Shown: positions 5,847 through 8,537 of the stretch, piece after piece | How positions within the stretch are numbered: the stretch's first letter is position 1 | Layout of the letters: each line of letters opens with the position of its first letter | Notes under the pieces: model-generated | The model's database searches: none | The model's input: only the letters and a program-made list of their open reading frames with translations | What the model was told of the DNA's origin: nothing | Program-made: the position numbers and the translations under genes | DNA from: Acidobacteriaceae bacterium | Lineage (GTDB): Bacteria > Acidobacteriota > Terriglobia > Terriglobales > Acidobacteriaceae | NCBI GenBank assembly: GCA_027364815.1 | Contig: DAHXOQ010000006.1 | Coordinates: 1 to 34,067 of the forward strand | Direction: 5' to 3' | Length of the DNA: 34,067 bases

Positions 5847-6425
5847 TTAATTTTCATTGAATGATTGAAAAAAACTTAACGCAGCATCGCCTTGCTCGAG
5901 AAGTCGTGTGCGTTTCAAAATGTTAATCGCCACAGGCAACGCGTCTTTGCGCCGATGTTCAGCGATGACCAAACCCTCGGGCGCTAAAAGCGAACCAACC
6001 GCCGAAAGCGTGGATTCATATTCGCCTGCCAGGTCATAGGGAGGGTCGAGGAAGATGATATCGAATTGCTGCTCAGCTTTTGCAGTTGCGCGCAGAAAGG
6101 CGGAGACCTTCGCGGATTCAATGCGATAACCGGTGGTGATGGAGAGTGACTCAAGATTTGCGCGGAGAATTTTGAGGGCCCGCGGAGCTTGCTCAACAAA
6201 AGTAACATGGAGAGCGCCTCGGCTGATGGCCTCAATCCCGACGGCGCCGGAGCCGGCATAAAGATCGAGAAAGCGCACGCCCTGAATATGCGGGTCATGC
6301 ATTTTAAAGCGCGGAGCCAGCACATTGAAAAGAGTTTCGCGCAGGCGGTCGCTGGTGGGGCGCGTCTCAATACCTGAAGGGGCATTCAAGATGCGGGAAC
6401 GGTAGTTGCCGGCAATGATTCTCAT
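5847..6425 (-). CDS. rsmD: 16S rRNA (guanine(966)-N(2))-methyltransferase RsmD
   Basis: RsmD methylates G966 of 16S rRNA in the 30S subunit using S-adenosylmethionine. The 192-residue protein opens MRIIAGNYRSR and has the TRPTSDRLRETLFNVL family signature, motif I as FLDLYAGSGAVGIEAISRGA, the acidic strand FVEQ, and the catalytic IIFLDPPYDL. The length is standard. The start ATG lies 43 bp from the divergent start of the M50-like gene, so the two share a short promoter region. Confidence 0.95.
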   Translation of the reverse strand: MRIIAGNYRSRILNAPSGIETRPTSDRLRETLFNVLAPRFKMHDPHIQGVRFLDLYAGSGAVGIEAISRGALHVTFVEQAPRALKILRANLESLSITTGYRIESAKVSAFLRATAKAEQQFDIIFLDPPYDLAGEYESTLSAVGSLLAPEGLVIAEHRRKDALPVAINILKRTRLLEQGDAALSFFQSFNEN

Positions 6426-6468
6426 TCAGTTGAAGCATACATCAGCCTGACGAACTACAATCTTTTGT

Positions 6469-7578
6469 ATGCGTGGGTGGTCCATTCCGTTAGGTCGCTG
6501 GCTGGGCGTAGAGATTCGCCTGCACACCTTTTTTCTGCTTCTGATCATCATCTGCATGGTGATTAACTCGGCGGCAGGTGGGTGGGCAGGCTTCGGGCTT
6601 TGGCTTGCGATTGGCGGTGCTGTTGTGGTGCGCGAGATTGCGCGCATGATGGTGGTTGCGTGGATGGGAATCAAGCTGCGCGCGGTATTGATTTTGCCGA
6701 TTGGCGGATTTTACGCGTACGCAAATCCTGAGAGCCAGGAGAAAGCGACGCAGGGCGCGGGGCAATATTTGCTGGCCTTTGCAGGGCCGGTTGCGAACAT
6801 ACTGACGGCGGTTGCGCTTTCATCGGCGCTGCTCGGAGCAAGCAGCAAATTCAGCCTCTTTGCACAGCCGTGGATCTCATCAAGTTATTTGCTGCGCAGT
6901 GTGGTTTGGCTGCAAGCGGGCATGGGCGTGCTGCACTTGATTCCGGCGTATCCGCTGGATGCAGGGCGGCTGATCCGGACAAATTTTTCGCGTACGCAAG
7001 GTGCGGCATCGGCGGTGCGTGTGGCTTCGGGGGTGGGTCAACTGCTTTCGATTGGCGCAATGGCCGTAGGCGGAATTATTCAAAACCCGTGGCTGATTAT
7101 TACCGGCTGCCTGGTATTTATTGGCGGGCAGATTGAAGATCAGGGAGTCTTCTTCCAATCGGTTGTGGACACGGTGCGGATGCGCGAAGTGATGCTGACG
7201 GATTTCTCCACGCTCTCGCCATCGGACACTTTGGTGGGCGCGCTGGCGCGTTGCGTTCACTCACTGCAGGAGGATTTTCCTGTAGTGCGTGGGCCGCAGT
7301 TAGTGGGAATTGTCTCGCGCCAAAAAATTGTAGATGCGCTGCGCTCGGATGGAAACGGGTATGTGCAATCCGTGATGTCGCGCGCATTCCAGGTGGCGCG
7401 GCCGGAAGACACGCTGGGCACGATTATTCGCCGCATCTCGGGCGGGCGTGGGCTCTCACTGATTCCTGTGACCGATAGCGGCAAGGTGGTTGGGATTGTC
7501 AGCGTGCAGAATCTGATGAGTTCAATGTCACTGCTTGCCGAGCAGCGGCGTCTGGAACGCGCGGAAGGCGGCAAGTAA
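6469..7578 (+). CDS. Site-2 protease (M50)-like membrane protein with CBS pair; metal site degenerate
   Basis: The 369-residue protein has the layout of CBS-type rhomboid-independent site-2 proteases: several membrane helices, then two CBS domains (residues about 230-350, with VMSRAFQVARPEDTL). In active members the first helix region has HExxH. Here it reads VVREIARMM, with Arg55 and Arg59 in place of both His and Glu56 retained. The codons are CGC, one transition from CAC. The third ligand region, LIPAYPLDAGRLIR, keeps Asp164 but loses the usual G after D. LPIGGFYAYANPES matches the conserved GG motif. It is therefore a likely pseudoprotease, perhaps a substrate-binding or regulatory protein. 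rsmI begins 2 bp after its stop. Confidence 0.85.
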   Translation: MRGWSIPLGRWLGVEIRLHTFFLLLIIICMVINSAAGGWAGFGLWLAIGGAVVVREIARMMVVAWMGIKLRAVLILPIGGFYAYANPESQEKATQGAGQYLLAFAGPVANILTAVALSSALLGASSKFSLFAQPWISSSYLLRSVVWLQAGMGVLHLIPAYPLDAGRLIRTNFSRTQGAASAVRVASGVGQLLSIGAMAVGGIIQNPWLIITGCLVFIGGQIEDQGVFFQSVVDTVRMREVMLTDFSTLSPSDTLVGALARCVHSLQEDFPVVRGPQLVGIVSRQKIVDALRSDGNGYVQSVMSRAFQVARPEDTLGTIIRRISGGRGLSLIPVTDSGKVVGIVSVQNLMSSMSLLAEQRRLERAEGGK

Positions 7579-7580
7579 CC

Positions 7581-8537
7581 TTGCGCGCTGAGGATGCATT
7601 AGAGAGTGATGAGCGCGATGGCGATTCCGCGCAAGGGTCATTTGATTCAACAACGAAAAAATCAGAACTAAAATTAGCTCCGGGACTTTATCTGGTCGCG
7701 ACTCCGATTGGTAATTTGGGCGATATTACATTGCGTGCGCTCGATGTGCTGCGTGGGGTGGATCGCATTGCGTGCGAAGACACGCGGCAGACGCAGAAGC
7801 TGCTCAATCACTTCGAAATCTCAACACCGACGGTGAGCTATCACCAGCACAACGAACGGGAGCGCGCGGAGCAATTGATTGAGACGCTCAAGGCGGGCGG
7901 GCGTGTTGCGGTGGTCAGCGATGCGGGTGTTCCGGCGATCAGTGATCCGGGTGGATGGCTGGTGAAAGCCGCGATTGAAGCGGGTGTGCGCGTGATTCCG
8001 ATTCCGGGCGCGAATGCAGCGTTGAGCGGGTTGATTGGTTCAGGATTGCGCACGGAGGCTTTTGCCTTTCACGGATTTTTGCCGGAGAAAGCCGGTGAGC
8101 GCAGAACTCGACTTGAAGAATTGGCAGAGGCCTCAGCCGGGAGTGGTGATGCACCGGCGACACTGATTTTCTATGAAGCGCCGCACAGAATTCTGGAGAC
8201 GCTCTCTGATTGCGAAGCAGTGTGGGGGCCGGAGTTGCGCGTGGTGGTGGCGCGCGAGCTGACAAAGATTCACGAAGAATTTTTGCGAGGGAGTGTGCGC
8301 GATGTGCGCGCAGATTTATCCGCGCGTGAGCGGGTGCGCGGCGAGATTACGCTGCTGATTGAGCCGGTTTGCAAGAAGGATGCAGCAGCGCACGAGAAAC
8401 TCACGGTGCGTGTGCAGCGCATGATGGATGAGCTGGGGGTGGATGAGAAGGAGGCGTTGAAAAAATTGGCGCGGGAGTTGAGGCAATCAAAGAGTGAACT
8501 TTATCGCGAGCTGCAAAGAGAAAAAGCGCGGAGGTAA
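7581..8537 (+). CDS. rsmI: 16S rRNA (cytidine(1402)-2'-O)-methyltransferase RsmI
   Basis: RsmI, a tetrapyrrole-methylase-fold enzyme, 2'-O-methylates C1402 of 16S rRNA. The 318-residue protein has GLYLVATPIGNLGDITLRAL, DRIACEDTRQTQKLL, the SAM-binding VVSDAGVPAISDPG, IPGANAALSGL, FHGFLP and the late FYEAPHR segment, all in family order. A low-complexity N-terminal extension of about 30 residues precedes the domain. The start is a TTG 2 bp after the upstream stop, with GGAAGG about 12 bases before it and no in-frame ATG or GTG before the domain. It is therefore likely translationally coupled to the M50-like gene. The C-terminal lysine-rich helix, ending REKARR, is typical. Confidence 0.92.
   Translation: MRAEDALESDERDGDSAQGSFDSTTKKSELKLAPGLYLVATPIGNLGDITLRALDVLRGVDRIACEDTRQTQKLLNHFEISTPTVSYHQHNERERAEQLIETLKAGGRVAVVSDAGVPAISDPGGWLVKAAIEAGVRVIPIPGANAALSGLIGSGLRTEAFAFHGFLPEKAGERRTRLEELAEASAGSGDAPATLIFYEAPHRILETLSDCEAVWGPELRVVVARELTKIHEEFLRGSVRDVRADLSARERVRGEITLLIEPVCKKDAAAHEKLTVRVQRMMDELGVDEKEALKKLARELRQSKSELYRELQREKARR

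Follow-up and report, generated by a model that had tools for sequence, protein, structure and literature searches.

A conserved RExxR variant of the site-2 protease fold in the Acidobacteriaceae, a probable pseudoprotease with a retained CBS pair

The M50 gene and its product

The window, by which we mean the whole analysed stretch of 34,067 nucleotides from an Acidobacteriaceae bacterium, carries a putative pseudo site-2 protease (S2P) gene at 6469..7578 on the forward strand, which has an ATG start and encodes 369 amino acids, as assigned by its open reading frame and translation, Pfam, and Foldseek. The product consists of an M50B membrane domain (residues 1-225), a linker, and tandem CBS domains at about residues 238-355. 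Its match to Pfam Peptidase_M50 is 32.3 bits, against a cut-off of 27.2, and two CBS domains are matched as well: the first lies approximately at 7180..7344 (forward strand, Pfam and PDB profile matches) and the second, residues 299-352, at 7363..7524 (forward strand, Pfam). On the other side of a short gap lies the divergent rsmD gene (5847..6425, reverse strand; NCBIfam TIGR00095 above cut-off), 43 bp off, and rsmI (7581..8537, forward strand; TIGR00096 above cut-off) begins with a TTG start 2 bp past the M50 stop, which is the arrangement that the earlier note on this DNA had described. The two divergent starts of rsmD and the M50 gene are separated by just these 43 bp (6426-6468), leaving little space for two promoters.

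The place of the HExxH zinc-binding and catalytic motif is occupied by R55-E56-I-A-R59 (6631..6645, forward strand), within the sequence AVVVREIARMMVVAW. Both arginine codons (6631-6633 and 6643-6645) are CGC and the glutamate codon is GAG. In a profile alignment built from 11 close homologues (E 1.6e-29), REIAR aligns with HELGH, and LDAGR with MDGGR, of the solved enzyme mjS2P from M. jannaschii (3b4r). Since REIAR falls on HELGH, a true HExxH at another place in the window protein, named beforehand as a result that would overturn the reading, was ruled out, and the earlier description of a motif with both histidines changed to arginine and the glutamate kept holds in the translation and the alignment alike. 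The GG motif is intact at residues 79-80, and the LDG motif, D164-A-G-R (6958..6969, forward strand), keeps the zinc-ligand aspartate with its second residue altered, so that LDGG reads LDAG, a slight change. The protein thus lacks the HExxH by which M50B peptidases are recognised and retains their LDG-type aspartate. Because both histidine ligands are arginine, the RExxR protein would very probably be unable to hold a catalytic zinc ion, and hence to cut peptide bonds. Two further M50 open reading frames lie elsewhere in the same genome, both with HExxH.

The S2P fold is nevertheless recognisable in a multi-pass core, a re-entrant hairpin, and M50 homology. An AlphaFold2 model computed from 62 RExxR sequences is confident in the membrane part (residues 1-220, mostly pLDDT 73-96) and poor in the CBS part (pLDDT of about 30-53). 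The top Foldseek match is mjS2P 3b4r (TMt 0.77, E 1.6e-12), and the other best PDB matches are SpoIVFB and the CBS pair of the A. fulgidus site-2 protease. The latter pair (5g5r/5g5x), together with Pfam, places the C-terminal region in the tandem CBS fold, and its signature residues are mostly conserved, in line with the earlier view that the pair is intact. Strands in the AlphaFold2 model predict a beta hairpin of residues 70-76 and 79-84 with P77, G79, and G80 (6676..6720, forward strand); this hairpin, the membrane re-entrant loop of S2P, is retained in RExxR proteins with a conservation of 96-100%.

Compared to mjS2P, an M50B protease of the MJ0392 type, the RExxR protein has in common the fold, the GG loop, the LDG aspartate, and a C-terminal CBS pair, whereas both zinc histidines are arginine and metalloprotease chemistry is not expected. 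The membrane core, the interdomain linker, and the position of the CBS part below the membrane also resemble those of SpoIVFB from B. subtilis (8vjl; PMC11486902). SpoIVFB, however, is catalytic (H43, E44, H47, D137) and has one CBS domain instead of two. In SpoIVFB a re-entrant loop sits before the HExxH motif, and it was proposed that substrates are generally captured in an extended beta conformation (PMC11486902).

Distribution, origin, and selection

Homologues were collected with the whole protein or with CBS-region peptides, never by the motif, and the motif was read out in about 200 loci. In family-wide searches the gene was present in 371 of 398 genomes of the family, including 250 of the 256 good-quality ones. 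RExxR was found in 155 loci from 24 genera of the window organism's GTDB family, giving 135 non-identical proteins with a length of 330 residues or more; named records include Acidicapsa dinghuensis, Silvibacterium bohemicum, and Occallatibacter savannae, and the motif also occurs in metagenome-assembled genomes labelled Terracidiphilus and Acidobacterium. Recurrence of the R/E/R triplet in 135 non-identical proteins far exceeds chance. The family also includes 46 other genera with HExxH orthologues, and the two forms never share a genus; intact motifs in close relatives, which the earlier note had set as a ground for refutation, lie outside the clade. RExxR was absent from 29 homologues of other families and from five more distant paralogues within the family, all of which have HExxH. 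The idea that the RExxR gene is a paralogue standing beside an intact copy was rejected, as both forms occupy the same rsmD-divergent locus; that almost every family genome yields one strong match also argues against it.

In a tree computed with the motif columns omitted, the RExxR proteins all group together in a single clade (bootstrap 100, SH-aLRT 100) that branches on a long stem (0.82) from within the HExxH orthologues. As judged from this tree, RExxR arose once, when an orthologue of the active type changed in place at this locus. The sister of the clade (bootstrap 97, SH-aLRT 80) is a protein reading QETAR...AAG, without zinc ligands, and this second form may record an intermediate step. 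At its locus (L077; G079, g70), where AAG replaces DGG, an apparent alanine racemase gene follows. Two REVGH proteins from one genus fall within the RExxR clade. Degenerate sites also occur in the orthologue of two other genera, HELVQ (L035, G005) and HQLML (L036, G006). These arose independently of RExxR, so that the active site was lost at this locus more than once, with fixation in a large clade for RExxR only.

Each histidine codon CAC would need a single transition to become CGC, which speaks for a recent loss of activity, followed by decay, of the S2P gene in the window genome. The pattern across the clade leaves this explanation with almost no probability, because frames are intact in 24 genera, dN/dS is low, and the arginines are near-invariant despite codon turnover. 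When the REVGH members are counted in, the amino acid changed 0 times at R55, 0 times at E56, and once at R59, while the codons changed 47, 36, and 45 times, respectively; the median is 16 amino acid changes per position. All six arginine codons are used at position 55 and five at position 59; hence it is the arginine residues that are kept, not the DNA. For the closest pairs dN/dS is well below 1 in both of the parts that the earlier note had proposed to check, with values of about 0.02-0.10 for the membrane and 0-0.07 for the CBS region. Medians over less close and partly saturated pairs are 0.20 (membrane) and 0.07 (CBS) in the RExxR clade; the HExxH clade has 0.18 and 0.06. When rsmD divergence is matched, the membrane part has about the same identity as in HExxH orthologues, e.g., 0.581 vs 0.577. 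From the low dN/dS and this similar conservation it follows that the gene is not decaying and that its membrane part is more than merely tolerated.

In a different explanation the membrane domain would have given up its old client role and serve solely as a stable, oligomerising anchor for a cytosolic CBS sensor, with the arginines fixed for nothing but packing. It draws on the lower entropy of the CBS part (0.92 bits, compared to 1.46 bits for the membrane part) and on the 20 positions with zero change, 12 of which lie in the linker and CBS domains and five in the membrane part beyond R55, E56, and R59. A similar ratio of CBS to membrane entropy (0.76 vs 1.42 bits), however, is found in the HExxH orthologues, and relative to rsmD the membrane part shows no relaxation, so we regard an anchor role as rather unlikely. 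Relaxation of the membrane domain relative to rsmD or CBS was not seen in identity, entropy, or dN/dS compared with the HExxH clade. A membrane part relaxed while the CBS part was kept was accordingly rejected on entropy, dN/dS, and rsmD-matched identity.

Collectively, the marks of a pseudoprotease are present, namely loss of the catalytic residues throughout a clade and purifying selection after the loss. The single clade, the near-invariant R/E/R, the selection, and the presence in 250 of 256 good genomes bear out the earlier proposal of a conserved pseudoprotease instead of a decaying gene.

Adjacency of rsmD and rsmI

An SD-like ggaaggcgg lies within the 3' end of the M50 gene ahead of rsmI, and rsmI is a probable co-transcribed operon partner of the M50 gene, to which it is possibly also translationally coupled. 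The earlier note had gone further, seeing in the two neighbours a link between membrane regulation and ribosome modification; in its strongest form, the protein would be a membrane regulator of RsmI (and RsmD) acting through operon coupling or direct contact. The distribution of rsmI speaks for this: it stands directly downstream in 124 of 135 assessable members of the RExxR clade, usually at an operon-like distance (median of 54 nt from the M50 stop to the conserved rsmI core), compared to one of 45 assessable HExxH orthologues, and rsmD is divergent throughout the family. Yet 43 of the family's 46 HExxH orthologues also have rsmD in divergent orientation, so that this pairing is an ancestral context that preceded the loss of the histidines. 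Adjacency to rsmI was gained once, along the long branch on which the motif changed as well, and it was later broken several times, with about nine adjacency changes within the clade and the M50 gene kept throughout. The synteny with rsmI is seen in most of the clade, but as one gain with repeated breaks it carries no statistical weight for a function and allows no functional link to be claimed; a membrane-ribosome connection is accordingly not supported, and a regulator of the methyltransferases is very improbable. The adjacency is probably an operon convenience, not evidence for such a link. Reports of an M50 gene paired with rsmI or rsmD were not found in the open-licence papers searched, where a Granulicella omics paper that mentions M50 proved a spurious match.

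At the HExxH loci that were read out the downstream gene varies; a common one is a convergent gene, which we read as serA-like from its sequence. At one HExxH locus (L023; G029, g28) rsmI lies about 190 bp downstream, seemingly by an independent approach.

Possible role of the RExxR protein

As far as sequences can tell, the R-E-x-x-R motif, the membrane fold, and the CBS pair are fixed and under purifying selection, and we hold it highly probable that the RExxR protein has a selected function that is not proteolytic. The explanation that we prefer as a whole, with a probability of roughly 0.6, is a conserved pseudoprotease with a salt-bridge core and CBS-tuned holding of a client.

The charges of residues 55, 56, 59, and 164 cancel out in 132 of 135 RExxR proteins and also in the QETAR...AAG sister, which suggests that the two arginines replace the charge of Zn2+. 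Two Arg (+2) would substitute for Zn2+ (+2), and together with the Glu and Asp that are still present they would form a charge-balanced buried salt-bridge cluster that stabilises the core. Such a core appears somewhat better than evenly probable. D164 is retained in 132 of 135 RExxR proteins, and the other three, all from one subclade, keep RExxR with D164 lost (PTTQ/PSTQ/PTRR); the full charge cluster is therefore not obligatory. These three (L132, L133, L136; g80), without the LDG aspartate, also miss the residues after the LDG position.

The re-entrant hairpin, the LDG loop, and the linker may still bind the ancestral client or clients by a transmembrane or linker segment, and the CBS pair could set holding versus release by adenine nucleotide, although nucleotide sensing by the CBS pair of the window protein is inferred from homology only. 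The protein would then be a non-cutting receptor or protector of its client, with a logic like that of iRhoms or EGY3. We give this client-holding mechanism slightly less than even odds. It is more tentative to regard R-E-x-x-R as a new class of site in the S2P fold, in which a charge-for-zinc swap produced a CBS-gated, non-cutting receptor that is a core gene in much of the Acidobacteriaceae.

Most known intramembrane pseudoproteases, such as the iRhoms and EGY3, are eukaryotic, and no described bacterial S2P pseudoprotease family was found in the open-licence papers searched. Arabidopsis EGY3 is an S2P homologue without HExxH that is retained and stabilises other proteins (PMC10978774). It is thus likewise an S2P pseudoprotease but belongs to the chloroplast and a plant lineage and is not stated to have RExxR, and its origin is taken to be independent of the RExxR clade; it indicates by analogy that a stabiliser-type role is possible for the RExxR protein. 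The iRhoms, according to two reports (PMC6451368, PMC3149277), are also dead intramembrane proteases that bind clients, whereas they are animal proteins with the unrelated rhomboid serine-protease fold. With sister genera that have intact orthologues at this very locus, the clade offers a clean natural experiment on one gene in one place, with versus without the catalytic histidine pair. Comparing RExxR with HExxH forms could make testable which roles S2P has beyond cutting, what the CBS pair is for, and whether a buried Arg/Glu/Asp cluster can stand in for a zinc site. The purpose of the CBS domain of S2P has been called enigmatic (PMC11486902).

Several residues of the RExxR clade are unchanged, namely H19, P77, G79-G80, W147, P159, D164, and most CBS signature residues. 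Others have shifted: DGG is loosened to D[A/C/G/F]G, position 225 switches from R in HExxH to Q in RExxR proteins and position 239 from E to R, and N149 and N156, which the HExxH clade conserves, are replaced by Q and H in the majority of RExxR proteins. This drift to Q and H may indicate a changed client site. A further explanation would be a protease with new metal ligands, e.g., H19, H156, D164, or, in one subclade, C165. H19 (6523..6525, forward strand) is invariant, with 0 amino acid and 29 codon changes, H156 (6934..6936, forward strand, at the site where a conserved Asn precedes the LDG motif) is His in 86 of 135 RExxR proteins, and position 165 (6961-6963 in the window) is Cys in 29. 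However, position 156 is Asn in the other 49 of 135, Cys165 is confined to its subgroup, and H19 is equally invariant in HExxH proteins. There is therefore no alternative metal site common to the clade, and a re-ligated protease is very improbable.

One large subgroup (L146 and relatives) combines His156 with Cys165, reading H...DCGR, and in these proteins the pair is a possible new metal or redox site.
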